From: a virus
IMG/VR virus record: IMGVR_UViG_3300040959_000128
Location: 1 to 28,121 of that record
Reading direction: 5' to 3' (one strand)
Length of the DNA stretch: 28,121 nt
Shown: positions 15,339 to 28,020 of the stretch, piece by piece
Position numbering within the stretch: position 1 is the first letter of the stretch
Layout: each line of letters opens with the position of its first letter
Made by a program: the position numbers and the translations under genes
Notes under the pieces: generated by a model
Database searches by the model: none
What the model saw: the letters and a program-made list of their open reading frames with translations, nothing else
What the model was told of the DNA's origin: nothing

Positions 15339-16863
15339 GGGGCATACCCTGTTGCTGTTGCTGTTGCTGCATCGCCATCTGCTGCGCCAATGCAGCTATT
15401 TGTTTACGCTGCTCTTCGTCTCGAATCAAGGACTCTGGCACACCAAACTTCTTTGCGAGGTGAATTGCCGTTTGCTCACCGTCGATTAGAAGCTGCAACA
15501 TCTCAGGGCCGAAGACACCGCCGACAAGCTCAAGGAAACGGGCCACCGAAGAGATGTCTTGGTTAGCCTGTGCTTGCGCCAGAGGGGACACAGATTTGAT
15601 CTTGACCTCCCTGCCGTTTACGGTAGGAACCTCAATGCGGCCCTGCTTCTTGAGTATGTAAATTACTCTCTGAAGCACGGGCTGCACGAGTTCCGCTTGC
15701 AGCCGCCCGAAGGCAGCACCGATGCGGCGAGACAGGTCAGCCATCCGCTCAGCAACCTCAGTCGCAGTCGCGGGCGTCTTGTCCGGATTCCCAAGCATAT
15801 CGTTGTAAAGCGCGCGCTTAATGTTCAGACGCATGTCGCTGAGAATGAGCTGCGCTACGTCAAACCTGCCAGCAGCATTGATAGGCTGAAGGCCAGAACT
15901 ACCCATTGCTTTCGGAATGATAGAACCCGGAACAAGGTTGATCGTGTCGGGGTTGATAACGCCATCGTCTTCCATCTGATAAATGCCAGAGATAGACATC
16001 TGCGCATTCTCAAGAATCATCTCAATGGTCAGGTTCGTCGTCTTGATAGCAGCGAGGCCATTGATCAGCGGGCCACGGCCATAGACTTCACCAGCGCACT
16101 TCGACCAGCGGAAGCAGACAAACGGGTTCGAGCCAAGACCCTTCATCTCCTTCTTGTGAAGGACGGTCTCGGTCTTGAGGCAGATCGCGTAGTGGTAATA
16201 CGCCTCTTCGTTTTTCTTGTCGTAGTCACGGCACACCACCTCAAGCACAGTGGTCTCCGCTTCCTTGCCCATCTGATTCATCACCTTCGCATCGAAGGTA
16301 GCGTTGGGATACATCACGGGCAGATGATCAAACTTGACCTTCTTGCGCTCACGATAGACGTGATCAATGCGATCATCCGGCCCAGTATCAAGCACCACAT
16401 GCGGCAACGGGATTGCTGAGAAGACGACCGGGTTTACCGCGTCACCTTCTTCCACGCACAGAATGCCCGTCCCGACCGCCAAATCCATGAAGGACTCGTG
16501 AACCTCTTGTGCGAAGTTGGAGTTTTGAATGACTTCAAAGACATACTCCGTAACTTCGTCCAGTTCATTATCGACCTCATCTCTCTGTTCAGGTGGAACC
16601 TCACTGCCAGAAACCAGATCAGCCCATCGCGCAAAGTTCGGAACAAGACCAGACTGAAGACGGCTGGCAAATTCCTGCACACCGACCACAGCAGTCTCGT
16701 CAAAAATCTTGTCGTCGCGGCGCTGACCCGCTTCTTCATAGTAGAAAGATTCTCGTTGAGGGAGTGCGTATTCATAGCACTCTTCAAAGAGAGGAACCCA
16801 GTTCTCTCGGAACGCCTTCGCCTTGCGATAGCGTTCGATGTATCGTTTGGCGAGACTGTCCAT
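15319..16863 (-). CDS. Portal (head-tail connector) protein, gp8-like
   Basis: 514 residues versus 536 for T7 gp8. The N-terminal YIERYRKAKAFRENWVPLFE, EECYEYALPQRESFY and then FASRLQSGLVPNFARW are hallmark portal segments of T7-like phages. The middle has NPFVCFRWSKCAGEVYGRGP and an IKTTNLTIEMILENAQ helix, and the crown region TPATATEVAERMADLSRRIGA is also typical. It ends in a glutamine run (about eight Gln, CAA/CAG repeats at ~15350-15372). It would form the dodecameric ring at one capsid vertex for DNA packaging and tail attachment. The ATG is coupled to the upstream stop (TAATG). Confidence 0.93.
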   Translation of the reverse strand: MDSLAKRYIERYRKAKAFRENWVPLFEECYEYALPQRESFYYEEAGQRRDDKIFDETAVVGVQEFASRLQSGLVPNFARWADLVSGSEVPPEQRDEVDNELDEVTEYVFEVIQNSNFAQEVHESFMDLAVGTGILCVEEGDAVNPVVFSAIPLPHVVLDTGPDDRIDHVYRERKKVKFDHLPVMYPNATFDAKVMNQMGKEAETTVLEVVCRDYDKKNEEAYYHYAICLKTETVLHKKEMKGLGSNPFVCFRWSKCAGEVYGRGPLINGLAAIKTTNLTIEMILENAQMSISGIYQMEDDGVINPDTINLVPGSIIPKAMGSSGLQPINAAGRFDVAQLILSDMRLNIKRALYNDMLGNPDKTPATATEVAERMADLSRRIGAAFGRLQAELVQPVLQRVIYILKKQGRIEVPTVNGREVKIKSVSPLAQAQANQDISSVARFLELVGGVFGPEMLQLLIDGEQTAIHLAKKFGVPESLIRDEEQRKQIAALAQQMAMQQQQQQQGMPLEQQPG

Positions 16864-21168: not shown

Positions 21169-21249
21169 ATGAAATACGAGATGTTCCTCTACGACCTGAT
21201 AGGTTTCCTCTGCATCATTGGCGTCCCGCTGATGTTCCTCTTTGCCTAA
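21169..21249 (+). CDS. 26-residue membrane peptide
   Basis: A very short gene with a strong AAGGAG eight bases before ATG 21169. The product starts MKYEMFLYDLIGFLCIIGVP and ends LMFLFA, essentially one hydrophobic helix. It is set between two GCAA-loop hairpins. Possible roles include a holin-like or superinfection/inner-membrane peptide, but nothing in the sequence decides this. The ribosome site and clear membrane character make it likely real despite its size. Confidence 0.6.
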   Translation: MKYEMFLYDLIGFLCIIGVPLMFLFA

Positions 21250-21366: not shown

Positions 21367-21396
21367 TTGCGTTAACTACCATCTTACTGCAATAAT
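21367..21396 (+). promoter_or_regulatory. Possible sigma-70-type promoter for the DUF932 operon
   Basis: TTGCGT (21367-21372) and AATAAT (21391-21396) with 18-base spacing, 28 bases upstream of the ATG at 21424. The -35 match is weak (3 of 6) and the -10 good (5 of 6). The -10 lies inside the 21384-21403 palindrome, as expected for a repressible promoter. Confidence 0.4.
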
Positions 21397-21403
21397 GCAG
21401 TAA
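21384..21403. promoter_or_regulatory. Operator-like palindrome 1 (TTACTGCA-ATAA-TGCAGTAA)
   Basis: Perfect 8+8 inverted repeat with a 4-base centre overlapping the likely -10 of the DUF932 operon. The same core, TACTGCA-N4-TGCAGTA, recurs at 23602-23619 at the start of an HTH regulator gene. Probable binding site of one of the phage HTH proteins (inference). Confidence 0.65.
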
Positions 21404-21423
21404 CAACAACGAGGAGAACACTC

Positions 21424-21654
21424 ATGAAATACCAATACACTGATGGTGCATCAATCAGCATAGCGATTGGTTTCACGATCACCGACATCGACCACATGCT
21501 TCGTTGGTGTCGCGAACTAAAGAAGCCAAGCCACCCCGATGAGTTCTATCTTGGAATCGCAATTCAGCGATTGACTGAGGCGAAGAAGGAAGCAGCAAGC
21601 TCATTGCGTTTGTATGTCAACGACCTTGAGATGGAGAACGAAGATGCCTTTTGA
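21424..21654 (+). CDS. Hypothetical 76-residue protein
   Basis: ATG 21424 with CGAGGAG upstream. The product starts MKYQYTDGASISIAIGFTIT and has a helical C-terminal half (LGIAIQRLTEAKKEAASSLR) with an acidic tail. No family recognised. It is the first gene of the operon controlled by the palindrome at 21384-21403, and its end overlaps the DUF932 start by 11 bases. Confidence 0.75.
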   Translation: MKYQYTDGASISIAIGFTITDIDHMLRWCRELKKPSHPDEFYLGIAIQRLTEAKKEAASSLRLYVNDLEMENEDAF

Positions 21655-22492
21655 TTCCAACAATGACTGGGCATTCCCGGTCGAGATGCAGCCCGTGTTC
21701 GATCAGCATGGCGAACAGATTCCCGGCAGCAAATGCGTGATGCGCACTGACACCAACGAGGTTCTCGGTGTGCATGGCAGTCGCTACCAGATGGTGAGCC
21801 ACGACACCGTGGTCAACTCCATCATGGATGCAGTCGTCGAAGCTGACATCAGTCGTGACTACGAAATGAAAACGTCAATCATCGACGGCGGCAGGAAGTT
21901 GCGAGGAGAGATTCTGTTTCGTGACCTGACAGTCGAGCCTTCGGTTGGTGACTTCGTTCAGTTCCGAGTCAGCTTCTTCAACAGTTACGATGGCATGTGG
22001 TCATTCAGTCAAGCCGCTGATGGCCTTCGCCTTTGGTGTCTGAACGGATGCACCACTCCGATTGGCACGGCGCGCAGTGTGTTCAAGCACACAGTGAGCA
22101 TCAACATCGAAGGCTCGGCGCAGAAGATTGCCAACGGTTTGGACTTCTTCATGAACAACAAAGAGACTTGGCAACAGTGGCAGTCAATCAAGGTCAGTGA
22201 CATGACCGTCGAAGCCTTCTTCAAAGCAACGATTGCCAAGTCAGCCAGCCGCCAGCAACTCGTGACCAAGACCAATGAGAAGCAACTCGAAAACCTTCTC
22301 GGCATTTGGGACAACGAGAAGCGACAGCTCGGCGGCAATCAATGGGCGCTCTACAATGCAATGACCTACTGGGCATCGCACACAAGCGACCTCAAGAATC
22401 CCGAGGTTGCCCGCCGCAATCGTGAGGATGCAATCGCCAAGGCAATGAACCACAAGCGTTGGCAAGAACTAGAACTGGAGAACATCGTATGA
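21644..22492 (+). CDS. DUF932 domain protein
   Basis: 282 residues from ATG 21644 (MPFDSNNDWAFPVEMQPVFD), a start preferred over an upstream ATG at 21614 because it has GGAG nearby and a short overlap. The segment NEVLGVHGSRYQMVSHDTVV, then GGRKLRGEILF and GLRLWCLNGCTTPIGTARSV, is the DUF932 pattern, common in phages and plasmids. Biochemical function is not established; a DNA-metabolism or anti-host role is speculated for the family. The stop overlaps the next start (ATGA). Confidence 0.88.
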   Translation: MPFDSNNDWAFPVEMQPVFDQHGEQIPGSKCVMRTDTNEVLGVHGSRYQMVSHDTVVNSIMDAVVEADISRDYEMKTSIIDGGRKLRGEILFRDLTVEPSVGDFVQFRVSFFNSYDGMWSFSQAADGLRLWCLNGCTTPIGTARSVFKHTVSINIEGSAQKIANGLDFFMNNKETWQQWQSIKVSDMTVEAFFKATIAKSASRQQLVTKTNEKQLENLLGIWDNEKRQLGGNQWALYNAMTYWASHTSDLKNPEVARRNREDAIAKAMNHKRWQELELENIV

Positions 22493-22701
22493 ATGCACCA
22501 CGCATGACACGCGCGCACTTCAACTTCATCGCTGATGTGGTTGGCCCTGCGCTTGGGTTTGCTAGCCAAGCCCACGAGATTGCGGATCATCTTCAAGCAA
22601 CCAACCCGAAGTTTGACCGTGATAAATTCATCGAGCGAACGATCAAGGCATGGGAAGTTAGGAATCCCGCGCCCGATCTTGACGATGAAATCCCCTACTG
22701 A
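22489..22701 (+). CDS. Hypothetical 70-residue protein
   Basis: ATG 22489 overlaps the DUF932 stop (ATGA), with GGAG upstream. The product begins MNAPRMTRAHFNFIADVVGP, has a helical middle and an acidic end (LDDEIPY). The pattern 'FNFIADVV...FDRDKFIERTIKAW' resembles small phage proteins of unknown function found near recombination genes (from memory). No catalytic motif. Translational coupling suggests joint expression with the DUF932 protein. Confidence 0.7.
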   Translation: MNAPRMTRAHFNFIADVVGPALGFASQAHEIADHLQATNPKFDRDKFIERTIKAWEVRNPAPDLDDEIPY

Positions 22702-22721
22702 TCCACAAAAGGAGAATCAAA

Positions 22722-23081
22722 ATGTGGAACAAGATTGTTAAGAAGACCCAGAACAAAATCGAAGCGCCGGGTCTGATGCGCTACAACAAATACGCCAAGG
22801 TGTTCATGCCAAAGAACATGGCACACGCTGGACGTGTTGACTTCTATCACGACAGCAAAGGGCGACTCGCTTATCAGTTCAAAGAGAGCGGCGAATACAA
22901 AGTGCGGATCAACGGTGCGCAAGCTGAGTTCACTTTGCCCGCCAAGCTGCAAGACATGGTTCCGAATGGGACATACCACAACATCAAGATCGTGGTTGAC
23001 GGAGGACTGATTGATGGAATGTATATCATCGACACCCAACAGTTTGAGGCAGAAGATAATCGTCGAGTGCCTGCTGAGTAG
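22722..23081 (+). CDS. Hypothetical 119-residue protein
   Basis: ATG 22722 with AAAGGAG eight bases upstream. A basic N-terminus (MWNKIVKKTQNKIEAPGLMR) is followed by a beta-rich body (GRVDFYHDSKGRLAYQFK, EYKVRINGAQAEFTLPAKLQ). No family recognised. The alternation suggests a small beta-barrel or sandwich. It belongs to the same rightward run as the DUF932 gene. Confidence 0.7.
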   Translation: MWNKIVKKTQNKIEAPGLMRYNKYAKVFMPKNMAHAGRVDFYHDSKGRLAYQFKESGEYKVRINGAQAEFTLPAKLQDMVPNGTYHNIKIVVDGGLIDGMYIIDTQQFEAEDNRRVPAE

Positions 23082-23211
23082 GCAAAGGAACTACGATGAC
23101 GCCAAGAGAGATGGCGTTCCTCGTGACGAATTACTCTTGATGCTGCTAGATATTCGCAAGTATGTCTGGCTTTACAGAAAGGAAGTCGCACCGTTCTCTC
23201 CTCTCCGGTAA
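23014..23211 (+). CDS. Hypothetical 65-residue protein overlapping its neighbour
   Basis: ATG 23014 has GGAGG eight bases upstream, and the frame overlaps the 3' end of the 119-residue gene by 68 bases. After the overlap the product is clearly protein-like: RQRNYDDAKRDGVPRDELLL then MLLDIRKYVWLYRKEV, an amphipathic helix. An alternative is a shorter product from a later start. No known family. The unusual overlap lowers confidence. Confidence 0.5.
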   Translation: MECISSTPNSLRQKIIVECLLSRQRNYDDAKRDGVPRDELLLMLLDIRKYVWLYRKEVAPFSPLR

Positions 23212-23221
23212 GACTTCCCTC

Positions 23222-23297
23222 TCCGGGGGCTGTCACTGCAACCCACACTTCAGTGTTGGTCGCTACCAAACTGCGCCACAGTCCGATGGCCCCCGGA
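23222..23297 (+). ncRNA. Candidate branched structured RNA element
   Basis: Outer stem TCCGGGGGC (23222-23230) pairs with GCCCCCGGA (23289-23297), 9 bp. Inside are three back-to-back hairpins: CACTG/CAGTG (23234-23238/23251-23255), TTGGT/ACCAA (23256-23260/23265-23269) and ACTG/CAGT (23270-23273/23279-23282). The size is close to a tRNA, but no anticodon or T-arm consensus is present. It lies in the 121-base gap before the DUF6378 gene. Existence as an RNA is inference. Confidence 0.4.
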
Positions 23298-23332
23298 ATT
23301 TCCCGCTTAAAACGAAACTTTATGGGGTAGAC

Positions 23333-23590
23333 ATGAAGCCCGCTGACATTCTCGGCCTTGCGAATGACATCATTCACGGCCAGCGCAACGACGACTACGG
23401 CAATCCAGAAGATTGCTTCTCTACCATTGCTCACATGTGGACTGCATACCTTGGCTACCCAGTGCAGCCGAAGGATGTGTGTATGATGATGGTGCTGCTA
23501 AAGGTAGCCCGAGCAACGAACAAGGTGACGGACGATACGCTGATCGACATCTGTGGATATGCCGCCCTCACCGCGAAGACTCTTGACTGA
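23333..23590 (+). CDS. DUF6378 domain protein
   Basis: 85 residues from ATG 23333. The core IIHGQRNDDYGNPEDCFSTI, then AHMWTAYLG, DVCMMMVLLKVARATN and DTLIDICGYAAL, is the DUF6378 signature widespread in phages. The all-helical pattern with conserved His/Asp/Glu/Lys resembles MazG-like nucleotide pyrophosphohydrolases, so a nucleotide-related role is possible but unproven. The frame extends upstream to 23162, but that part crosses the structured element and does not look like protein, so the internal ATG is preferred. GGGG lies just before it. Confidence 0.82.
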   Translation: MKPADILGLANDIIHGQRNDDYGNPEDCFSTIAHMWTAYLGYPVQPKDVCMMMVLLKVARATNKVTDDTLIDICGYAALTAKTLD

Positions 23591-23601
23591 CATGTGCCAC
23601 C

Positions 23602-23619
23602 TACTGCATTGATGCAGTA
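23602..23619. promoter_or_regulatory. Operator-like palindrome 2 (TACTGCAT-TG-ATGCAGTA)
   Basis: Perfect 8+8 inverted repeat; its last base is the A of the ATG of the HTH gene at 23619. It shares the TACTGCA-N4-TGCAGTA core with 21384-21403. Position suggests autoregulation of the regulator. The gene lacks a Shine-Dalgarno, perhaps because the operator occupies that space. Confidence 0.65.
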
Positions 23620-23903
23620 TGGAATCATACCTGAACACACTGAAGAACCGAGCCGAAGAGCTTGGCATCCCTCTCCTGACTGCGTTCAAGAGAGCGGACG
23701 TTCCGACTTCAACCTACTATCGCACTGTCAACGAGACGACAGAGCTGCGATACGATACGGCAAGGAAGGTGATGGAAGCTCTTGAAACAATTCACTCGAT
23801 TCAACAAGCCGTTGAACATACCCGAGAACTACGAGCTACTAATCAGCGAGTTAACAGACGCACGATCCGAGCAGGGATTAAGTCAGGAAGCACTGGCGTA
23901 TAA
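23619..23903 (+). CDS. Small helix-turn-helix regulator (HTH 1)
   Basis: 94 residues, MESYLNTLKNRAEELGIPLL then TAFKRADVPTSTYYRTVNET and LRYDTARKVMEALE, a helix-turn-helix of the phage repressor/Cro type in residues ~8-55. The rest, from about residue 56, overlaps the next HTH gene by 122 bases and has low-complexity Arg/Thr character, so the functional part is probably the N-terminal domain. The start lies inside an inverted repeat also found in the DUF932 operon promoter; it is the best candidate to bind both sites. Confidence 0.75.
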   Translation: MESYLNTLKNRAEELGIPLLTAFKRADVPTSTYYRTVNETTELRYDTARKVMEALETIHSIQQAVEHTRELRATNQRVNRRTIRAGIKSGSTGV

Positions 23904-24030
23904 GATCGGCTGCACTTCCTCGTTGGTTCACAAGTGGGAGACGCACAAGCGAATCCCTTCTGGCTTTCTTCTCATGTGTTGGCTCGACAGTCTTGGCTAC
24001 GAAATCGAAGTTAAAAAAAGGGACAGCTAG
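23782..24030 (+). CDS. Second helix-turn-helix (XRE-type) regulator (HTH 2)
   Basis: 82 residues from a TTG at 23782 (no internal ATG in a sensible place), with GGAAG just upstream. The core NYELLISELTDARSEQGLSQ, then EALAYKIGCTSSLVHKWETH and KRIPSGFLLMCWLDSLGYEI, is a textbook XRE HTH. It lies +1 relative to HTH 1 and overlaps it by 122 bases. It could be a separate gene or be joined to HTH 1 by frameshifting. It ends at an A7 run (23 bases before 24030) beyond which a zinc-ribbon-like frame continues. Confidence 0.75.
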   Translation: MKQFTRFNKPLNIPENYELLISELTDARSEQGLSQEALAYKIGCTSSLVHKWETHKRIPSGFLLMCWLDSLGYEIEVKKRDS

Positions 24031-25335: not shown

Positions 25336-25795
25336 ACAACGAGAGGCCGCTATTAAAGCTTGGTTCAAGACCGAGATGACAACCCGGTTCACACTGCCGA
25401 AGGACATCAACCCGATGAACGTGGCGACTGATGTGATTGAGTCGGTCAATGCCAACATTCCGTCTGGCGTTTCTCAGTCTTACTTCGATCACATGCTGAA
25501 AGAAATCACCAAGCAAGTGACCCGGAATGCGCGCTCTCGACTACTGCCAGTGCCAAAGGACTTCGTGGACGCAGCTAGGAATGCCTCTAAGAGCGCCTCT
25601 GAGGGGGGCTACGGCGGCGCTAGCACTGTTCGGGATATGGACCCCTACAAGATCACTGAGAAGCGGGTCCACCGGGGAGAACCAATAGCCGAGGCATTCC
25701 TTCATGGCAGACAGCGAGCGGCATTGCTTGAGCGAACATCGCTGACCGATGCCGACCTCGACAAATACATTGCGCCGGATGCACATATGCAGTAA
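25316..25795 (+). CDS. Hypothetical 159-residue protein after the replication gene
   Basis: ATG 25316 with AGGGAGG upstream, overlapping the replication gene by 20 bases. The product is helical: MRSMNFEQREAAIKAWFKTE, then PMNVATDVIESVNANIPSGV and QVTRNARSRLLPVPKDFVDA. No motif of a helicase or clamp loader is evident. Position right after an O-like initiator makes a helicase-loader (P-like) role possible, but this is inference. The C-terminal part contains a Gly/Ser-rich turn (EGGYGGAST). Confidence 0.7.
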   Translation: MRSMNFEQREAAIKAWFKTEMTTRFTLPKDINPMNVATDVIESVNANIPSGVSQSYFDHMLKEITKQVTRNARSRLLPVPKDFVDAARNASKSASEGGYGGASTVRDMDPYKITEKRVHRGEPIAEAFLHGRQRAALLERTSLTDADLDKYIAPDAHMQ

Positions 25796-25821
25796 TCTGG
25801 CGTGACAAGGAGAACAAGACA

Positions 25822-26604
25822 ATGAACAGAATCGGATTCATCGGCGGCTCTGACTGCGTTCAGATTATGCAAGGCAACTGGCTTGACCTGTGGCAGATCA
25901 AGACCGGGCGCGCAGAGCCTGCCGACCTTAGCGACAACATCGCTGTCCAGCTTGGCAGTCACACTGAGAGCTTCAACCTTAACTGGTTTAGCAAACAGAA
26001 CGATGCCAAGCTAATCAACTTCCAGACTTCCTACTCAGAAGACATTGGCGACATTCCAGTAGTGGGAACCGTTGATGCCATATGGGGCGGGGCCGTTGTT
26101 GAAGCCAAGCACACCAACTCTCGCAACACGATGGACGGAGTGATCGAATACTACATGCCGCAGATTCAGCTATACGCACGGCTGGCTGACGCTGACGGTA
26201 TCTATCTCTCAGTCATCTTCGGCAACAACAAGTGGGAGTCGTGCTATGTCGCGCGCAACGACCAGTATTTCAGTTCAATGTGGGCAGTGGTGTCGGACTT
26301 CTGGGGTTACGTTAGTCGGGATCAAGAGCCTGTTGGTGTTGAGGTGCCGTCCCTATCAACGGATGGGATTGCGGTGGACCACATGGTCCGTCGAGACGCC
26401 AGCAAAGACAACGGCTTCATCAACGCCGCGCATGACTACATCGAAAACGAAGCTGCGGCTCGTGTATTCGAGGGAGCAAAGAAAGACTTGAAGAGCATGG
26501 TCGCTCAAGATGAACGGGAAGTTTACTGCGACCTGCTAACCGTGAAGCGTGACAAACGAGGCGCGCTTCGCATTACCACGCGCAAGAAGGAGACAGCGCA
26601 ATGA
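25822..26604 (+). CDS. YqaJ/lambda-exonuclease-type recombinase
   Basis: 260 residues from ATG 25822 with AAGGAG upstream. Opening IGFIGGSDCVQIMQGNWLDL matches the YqaJ start (GGSD). Active-site residues follow the family: E49 (SHTES), D85 (GTVDA), E94-x-K96 (VVEAK), then the YYMPQIQLYARL helix with Q114. It should degrade one strand of DNA ends to leave single strands for the annealing protein encoded next. The stop overlaps the next ATG (ATGA), so the two are translated together. Confidence 0.9.
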   Translation: MNRIGFIGGSDCVQIMQGNWLDLWQIKTGRAEPADLSDNIAVQLGSHTESFNLNWFSKQNDAKLINFQTSYSEDIGDIPVVGTVDAIWGGAVVEAKHTNSRNTMDGVIEYYMPQIQLYARLADADGIYLSVIFGNNKWESCYVARNDQYFSSMWAVVSDFWGYVSRDQEPVGVEVPSLSTDGIAVDHMVRRDASKDNGFINAAHDYIENEAAARVFEGAKKDLKSMVAQDEREVYCDLLTVKRDKRGALRITTRKKETAQ

Positions 26605-27051: not shown

Positions 27052-27097
27052 CTGCCCGCTCCGCACCCGCATATATGCGGGGCGGGCAGAGTGCGGA
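27052..27097 (+). promoter_or_regulatory. Competing hairpins before the SSB-like gene
   Basis: Long stem: CTGCCCGC (27052-27059) with GCGGGCAG (27082-27089), enclosing the perfect palindrome CCCGCATATATGCGGG (27066-27081). A second option pairs TCCGCAC (27060-27066) with GTGCGGA (27091-27097) and excludes part of the first. No U run follows. Possible attenuator-like or mRNA processing element. Confidence 0.5.
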
Positions 27098-27488: not shown

Positions 27489-27527
27489 CATAGGGGTGTT
27501 CTCCTTGTTGTGACTGCAACAAACCTT

Positions 27528-27560
27528 GGGGGGTGGTCTCGGCCATCCCCCATTTCTTTT
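27528..27560 (+). terminator. Rho-independent terminator after the SSB-like gene
   Basis: Stem GGGGGGTGG (27528-27536) with CCATCCCCC (27543-27551), 9 bp with one G-U, 6-base loop, followed by ATTTCTTTT. It lies 39 bases after the SSB-like stop and likely ends the recombination operon. The next gene's GGAGG begins right after the T tract. Confidence 0.8.
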
Positions 27561-27569
27561 GGAGGGCTA

Positions 27570-27758
27570 ATGAAAAGCATCAAAGAATTGTGCGCACCGA
27601 TAAGCGCAAGGGTCATGCCCAAGTCAGCGCTTTATGCGCAGGATCACACGCCGCTTGATCCAAGCGATGCCGTGTCGAACCAACGCAAGGCGATTCACTC
27701 AACGGTAAACAAGTTCAAGAAGAGGAAACCCAATGACAGTCGCAATCATTCCGATTGA
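27570..27758 (+). CDS. Hypothetical 62-residue protein
   Basis: ATG 27570 with GGAGG five bases upstream, just after the terminator. The product is MKSIKELCAPISARVMPKSA, then LYAQDHTPLDPSDAVSNQRK and a basic C-terminus (NKFKKRKPN). No family recognised. It overlaps the DnaA-like gene start by 26 bases, so it may be co-translated with it. A longer in-frame start at 27510 would read through the terminator stem and is less likely. Confidence 0.6.
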   Translation: MKSIKELCAPISARVMPKSALYAQDHTPLDPSDAVSNQRKAIHSTVNKFKKRKPNDSRNHSD

Positions 27759-28020
27759 AGCGGAACAGGAGAACGTCAGAGCGGCAGACATCGTGAAGAT
27801 TGTCGCTGAGTTCTGTGGCGTCACCAGCGCTGGACTGATCGGCTACAGTCGTGAGCGCAAATACACAGTGCCCAGACAGGTGGCGATGTATTTGGTGCGC
27901 AAACATTGCGGTTACAGCTACCCGCAGGTCGGCAGCATCTTCCGCCGCGATCACACTACGGTGATGTATGCCTGCCGCCAGATTGAAAAGGAACTTGAGA
28001 AGAAAGGAGACCAGCAATGA
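27733..28020 (+). CDS. Stand-alone DnaA domain IV (DNA-binding) protein
   Basis: 95 residues that match the C-terminal DNA-binding domain of DnaA, with no AAA+ part. VAEFCGVTSAGLIGYSRERK (24-43) gives the first helices and basic loop, then TVPRQVAMYLVRKHCGYSYP (45-64) and the signature FRRDHTTVMYACRQIEK (70-86) with D73, H74 and T75. By family this domain reads DnaA boxes. The phage protein could recruit, compete with or replace host DnaA at origin-like sites (inference). AAGAGGAA precedes ATG 27733, and the stop overlaps the next ATG. Confidence 0.9.
   Translation: MTVAIIPIEAEQENVRAADIVKIVAEFCGVTSAGLIGYSRERKYTVPRQVAMYLVRKHCGYSYPQVGSIFRRDHTTVMYACRQIEKELEKKGDQQ

Follow-up and report, generated by a model that had tools for sequence, protein, structure and literature searches.

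The two matching palindromes found in the genome of an uncultured phage are most likely conserved operators in a regulon of uncultured marine phages. Comparison of related sequences indicates that they are probably the operators of a small phage regulon, in which the helix-turn-helix protein HTH-1 would bind CTGCR-N4-YGCAG as a dimer, repress its own gene, and repress the exonuclease and DUF932 operons. The abundant phage group to which this genome belongs thereby gains a testable circuit, in which a single small protein would act through a defined operator at three target promoters.

The Phage and Its Relatives

The window, meaning the whole stretch of DNA analysed, is the 28,121 nt record IMGVR_UViG_3300040959_000128, which is the sole record of its assembly. 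The longest records of the same phage group are 33-35 kb, so this one is probably incomplete. Its annotated genes include terminase, portal (Head-tail_con), capsid (Phage_capsid_2), DUF932 and DUF6378, together with RusA-like, replication initiator-like, YqaJ exonuclease, SSB-like and DnaA-C-domain genes. The last encodes a stand-alone DnaA C-terminal (DNA-binding) domain (27733-28020; PF08299, 1.3e-24) close to the end of the record. Terminator-like hairpins occur at 21216-21234 and 27527-27552, the latter with 11 pairs and a T-rich tail. A DNA search for the region among sequenced phages gave no match. The terminase of Pelagibacter phage EXVC031P Hodr is 65% identical to that of the window phage, and HTH-1 is encoded on no fewer than 431 viral stretches. 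Among the relatives are contigs of metagenome-assembled genomes (L114-L118, from genome_contigs) that carry the phage module and are labelled Opitutae, Rhodobacterales or "Euryarchaeota"; these are probably phage contigs binned together with cellular genomes.

Palindromes in the Window

A sequence-only reading of the window had pointed out the palindromes TTACTGCA-ATAA-TGCAGTAA at 21384-21403 and TACTGCAT-TG-ATGCAGTA at 23602-23619, and both are present at those positions, letter for letter. Their common core, TACTGCA-N4-TGCAGTA, has exactly two perfect matches in the window, both at these sites, and the A at 23619 is indeed the A of the ATG of the HTH-1 frame (23619-23903). Nowhere else in the window do two palindromes share 7-base arms and have equal spacing. 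No such pair, with any gap from 0 to 8, arose in 300 first-order Markov simulations using the dinucleotide frequencies of the window.

A position weight matrix was derived from the relatives only and then applied to the window. It ranks the sites at 21384 (26.4), 23601 (23.3), 15379 (20.3) and 25776 (16.8) at the top, with the next best at 5.8; the original pair therefore belongs to a set of at least three sites. Operator 1 (TTACTGCAATAATGCAGTAA, 21384-21403), with the highest score, precedes an operon of a 76-aa frame and DUF932. Operator 2 (TACTGCATTGATGCAGTA, 23602-23619) lies over a putative extended -10 element, TGC-ATTGAT (23605-23613), and has the A of the HTH-1 start codon as its last base. 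Operator 3 (CGGATGCACATATGCAGTAA, 25776-25795), overlooked in the sequence-only reading, has a degenerate left half and precedes the YqaJ exonuclease gene, occupying the place of the exonuclease site of the relatives. The possible fourth site (CTGCTGCGCCAATGCAGCTA, 15379-15398) lies within the portal gene, at its 3' end. HTH-1, HTH-2, the two proposed target operons and all three putative promoters are read from the + strand.

Conservation among Relatives

When 2.9 million viral contigs were scanned for exact matches to TTACTGCA-N4-TGCAGTAA, 11 came up, at least 7 of them in relatives of the window phage, where most sit before the exonuclease gene. Relatives were then collected by HTH-2, and as a general rule CTGCR-N4-YGCAG precedes both the ATG of HTH-1 and that of the exonuclease gene; counts were made in non-redundant sets. 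CTGCR-N4-YGCAG is the motif conserved between phages, while the outer TA/TA pairs of the original core vary. In the strict form CTGC-N6-GCAG, within -90 to -1, the site is found in 45/48 distinct relatives for HTH-1 and 37/41 for the exonuclease. Within 90 nt upstream of SSB, Sak, RusA, HTH-2, orf70, DUF932 and rep25, it is found in 0/195. The contrast of 82/89 with 0/195 has a Fisher probability of ~1e-63 before allowing for relatedness. A separate search with HTH-1 supplied 12 further distinct upstream regions, of which 11 have the strict site and all 12 a TTGA box at 29-31 nt. Two relatives (L011 and L012) have a perfect site before the exonuclease gene, yet lack a good one before HTH-1.

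The sequence-only reading had named lack of conservation in related phages as the observation that would refute it; the sites are kept. Its proposal of a small regulon stands insofar as the conserved putative operators include that of the HTH-1 gene itself, but the number of promoters grows from two to at least three. A search of the literature, with partial coverage, found no description of this regulon.

The HTH-1 Promoter and Start Codon

The HTH-1 promoter has a -35 box, TTGACT (23583-23588), 30 nt before the ATG. All 44 distinct relatives compared have a TTGA(C) box 28-31 nt before the ATG, and this holds for either of two operator positions. In position 1, the operator is 1-4 nt before the ATG (23 sequences, including the window); in position 2, it is 9-11 nt before (19 sequences). 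The start codon is ATG in 46/46, and a Shine-Dalgarno sequence of at least 4 nt is present in only 7/46, as compared to 106/107 of the exonuclease, Sak and SSB genes used as controls. With the A of the ATG taken as +1, TTGACN falls at about -35 to -30. That is the textbook position of a -35 box, and so the transcript is expected to start at the AUG. Because of this spacing, the invariable ATG and the mostly missing Shine-Dalgarno sequence, the HTH-1 mRNA is predicted to be leaderless. An operator over the -10 region of a leaderless gene must then touch the ATG. Hence, the placement of the operator on the start codon, which the sequence-only reading had singled out as unusual, is real, but it is explained by the layout of the promoter and is no end in itself.

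In both operator registers, a TGCA is located at -14 to -11, supplied by the left arm in one and the right arm in the other, and this half-site may serve at the same time as an extended -10 element. The -10 hexamers are poor matches to sigma-70 (A-n-T-T-A-T in one layout and weaker in the other), so the placement of the start site rests on the spacing between the -35 box and the ATG. A generic promoter scan of the window detected neither this promoter nor that of the DUF932 operon because the hexamers are weak; they are revealed only by comparison among relatives. An operator touching a start codon can thus directly signal leaderless transcription, and in phage dark matter such operators would be useful guides to repressor genes and to true start sites. 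The two registers around one promoter also offer a natural comparison for the effect of operator position on repression.

The Exonuclease and DUF932 Operons

The recombination operon begins with a YqaJ/RecE-like exonuclease gene (25822-26604; PF09588; phrog_434). Its putative promoter (25770-25798) reads TTGCGC-N17-TAATCT, with the spacer filled by operator 3. The same layout, TTG-N17-TARNNT with the operator filling the 17-nt spacer, is found in 38 relatives, in which the TT columns are kept in 36-38/38, the T in 38/38, the A in 37/38 and the last T in 29/38. This promoter differs from that of HTH-1 in having a clearer layout and a normal ribosome site. In some relatives (L092, L093, L078, L079 and L095), the exonuclease operator is preceded, ~20-40 nt upstream, by a further palindrome of the GTGACGTNACGTCAC type, possibly the site of another regulator. 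In the window, there is also a perfect 8+8 palindrome, CCCGCATATATGCGGG, before the SSB-like gene (27066-27081); it is unrelated to the CTGC-N6-GCAG operator.

The DUF932 operon begins with the 76-aa frame (21424-21654), which has a Shine-Dalgarno sequence, GAGGAG, and no Pfam or PHROG match. It is followed by the DUF932 gene (21644-22492; PF06067, 4.1e-17; phrog_1221). As read from the sequence, the putative promoter (21367-21396) would consist of TTGCGT (21367-21372), 18 nt, and the extended -10 element TGC-AATAAT, whose hexamer (21391-21396) is inside operator 1. The earlier suggestion that this palindrome covers a -10 box is therefore plausible, with TGC-AATAAT at 21388-21396. Just 11/34 distinct relatives have a site within 1.2 kb upstream of the DUF932 operon, and in some (e.g., L114 and L118) the site precedes another gene, one with a ribosome site.

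The HTH-1 Protein and the Choice of Binder

HTH-1 (94 aa, 23619-23903) is the proposed binder. By alignment, AlphaFold2 model, Foldseek and VIA-align, it is predicted to be a lambda-repressor-like DNA-binding protein. The model (pLDDT 83) has helices at residues 4-15, 19-25, 30-37 and 45-74, in keeping with the four- to five-helix HTH domain of the lambda-repressor-like (Cro/CI) proteins. Most of the invariant residues of the alignment are in the predicted third helix (30-37), including S31, T32, Y34 and R35. Residues 1-57 of the model align with P22 c2, DdrO, SinR and C proteins at 2.2-2.8 Å with modest Z of 4.8-6.6. The Foldseek matches are weak (best E 0.14), and since all E-values are above 0.1, the structural match counts as support at the level of the fold only. 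Neither Pfam nor PHROG has a model for this family: a PHROG search of 56 members hit 0 families, and Pfam matched LacI (PF00356) in only 2/56, with a best E of 1.1e-4.

HTH-1 overlaps by ~120 nt, in a different frame, with the gene for a second regulator, HTH-2 (23782-24030; 82 aa; TTG start). A tblastn search with HTH-2 against sequenced phages gave no match. In the overlap (23782-23903), nearly all relatives have TTG as the HTH-2 start, and a few have TCG, TCA or TCC as the aligned codon. That HTH-2, or a complex of the two proteins, and not HTH-1 alone is the binder deserves consideration because HTH-2 is a clear XRE protein (PF13560 and PF01381), is better conserved than HTH-1 (mean column identity of 78% vs. 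65%), and adjoins it in 71/71 loci. We nevertheless think it unlikely. The putative operator abuts the start of HTH-1. In addition, HTH-1 is absent from 28 Hodr-type (pelagiphage-type) loci, 25 of which encode an HTH-2 homologue, and CTGC-N6-GCAG does not occur anywhere in their 159 kb, whereas the 71 loci with HTH-1 contain it 164 times in 457 kb. EXVC031P itself has homologues of HTH-2, the exonuclease and RusA, and neither HTH-1 nor the palindrome. The motif therefore follows HTH-1 and not HTH-2, although this contrast is one phage lineage deep and base composition there may differ; the Hodr HTH-2 is also ~34% identical, so its specificity could have changed. Covariation does not settle the matter because there is hardly any variation in the operator or in either putative recognition helix. 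On balance, HTH-1 is a better candidate for the binder than the HTH-2 product. Host factors can read palindromic promoter operators too, but binding by a host regulator or by some other phage protein is distinctly improbable given that the motif tracks HTH-1 across phages from many metagenomes, and that related phages without HTH-1 lack it.

It might also be asked whether the palindromes are DNA sites at all. Perfect inverted repeats can form stems, and the 3' part of the palindrome at the DUF932 operon is just ahead of the leader, as might suit an attenuator or a translation block. Such a role as RNA hairpins is very improbable, since the HTH-1 site is upstream of the deduced transcript start, the exonuclease and HTH-1 sites are between or over the -35 and -10 boxes at fixed spacing, and a promoter and terminator scan found no terminator at 21384-21403 or 23602-23619. 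Finally, the match in the portal gene could stem from codon choice, but for the palindromes in general an origin by chance or as a by-product of coding has a negligible probability after the simulations and the comparison among gene types given above, and it is excluded for the HTH-1 and exonuclease sites.

The Proposed Circuit

Since operators over or between the -35 and -10 boxes occupy the positions of repressor sites, autorepression is the simplest role for HTH-1. From the sequence comparisons, we infer that HTH-1 is the binder, that it acts as a dimer on CTGCR-N4-YGCAG, and that it represses rather than activates. At its own promoter, where the transcript would start at, or 1-2 bases from, the AUG, HTH-1 bound over the -10 would exclude RNA polymerase, and HTH-1, HTH-2 and downstream genes would be repressed. 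It would repress the YqaJ-exonuclease recombination operon through the operator in the 17-nt spacer and the DUF932 operon through the operator over the -10. For the autorepression suggested in the sequence-only reading, the same conserved putative operator is indeed present at the HTH-1 promoter and at target promoters, as expected of a regulon (45/48 for HTH-1, 37/41 for the exonuclease and 11/34 for the DUF932 operon); the repression itself is deduced from these positions.

HTH-1 would thus act as a brake in the manner of Cro, on early genes and on those for replication and recombination. A search for a tyrosine integrase (PF00589) in 9 records of 28-35 kb, possibly incomplete, gave no match. 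This result would fit a role in lytic timing better than a lysogeny switch, without amounting to proof.

In the portal gene, the CTGC-N6-GCAG at 15379-15398 is encoded as GCT GCA nnn GCG CAG and is kept in 34/53 distinct portal relatives, which suggests more conservation than expected from codon choice alone. As to linkage with the regulator, the contigs without HTH-2 are also without the exonuclease and are partial, and three relatives (G035, G038 and G041) have the regulator but not the portal site; for these reasons the portal site stays a candidate. A wider scheme can be drawn, though we regard it as doubtful. In it, a widespread unnamed regulator family would control its regulon with a leaderless promoter that stays fixed and an operator that takes one of two registers, ~8 bp apart. 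The TGCA, supplied by the left or the right arm, would double as the extended -10, and an extra operator within portal coding sequence would link the late genes to the circuit.

Comparison with Known Systems

Lambda cI transcribed from PRM is a leaderless autoregulated repressor. Other cases are the cI and cro genes of the telomere phage PY54, which are leaderless with nearby or overlapping operators (PMC4488713), and PaaR2 of an E. coli O157 cryptic prophage, a leaderless autoregulated repressor (PMC8630535). HTH-1 resembles lambda cI, PY54 cI and cro, and PaaR2 in being an HTH repressor gene with an mRNA predicted to begin at the AUG and an operator near or over the promoter. It differs from them in that its site is not between paired divergent cI and cro genes, there is one palindrome per promoter at three dispersed promoters, no integrase was found in the 9 records, and the protein has no PHROG match.

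The restriction-modification C protein C.Csp231I is also autoregulated from a leaderless transcript (PMC4824078). Like the C proteins, HTH-1 is a small HTH protein with a predicted leaderless transcript, an inverted-repeat operator in its own promoter and proposed autoregulation. Unlike them, it has no restriction-modification genes among its annotated neighbours and a single operator per promoter, its proposed targets are the recombination and DUF932 operons, and its structural match to C.Esp1396I is weak (Z ~5.5). There is also a weak HTH sequence similarity to the LacI-family headpiece, with CcpA/LacI chains at E 0.4-0.9, but HTH-1 lacks a sensor domain, and the aligned members are mostly 68-94 aa. 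By analogy, then, the HTH-1 system would work as the known leaderless repressors do, in an unnamed protein family with a proposed three-promoter regulon and an operator in two registers.
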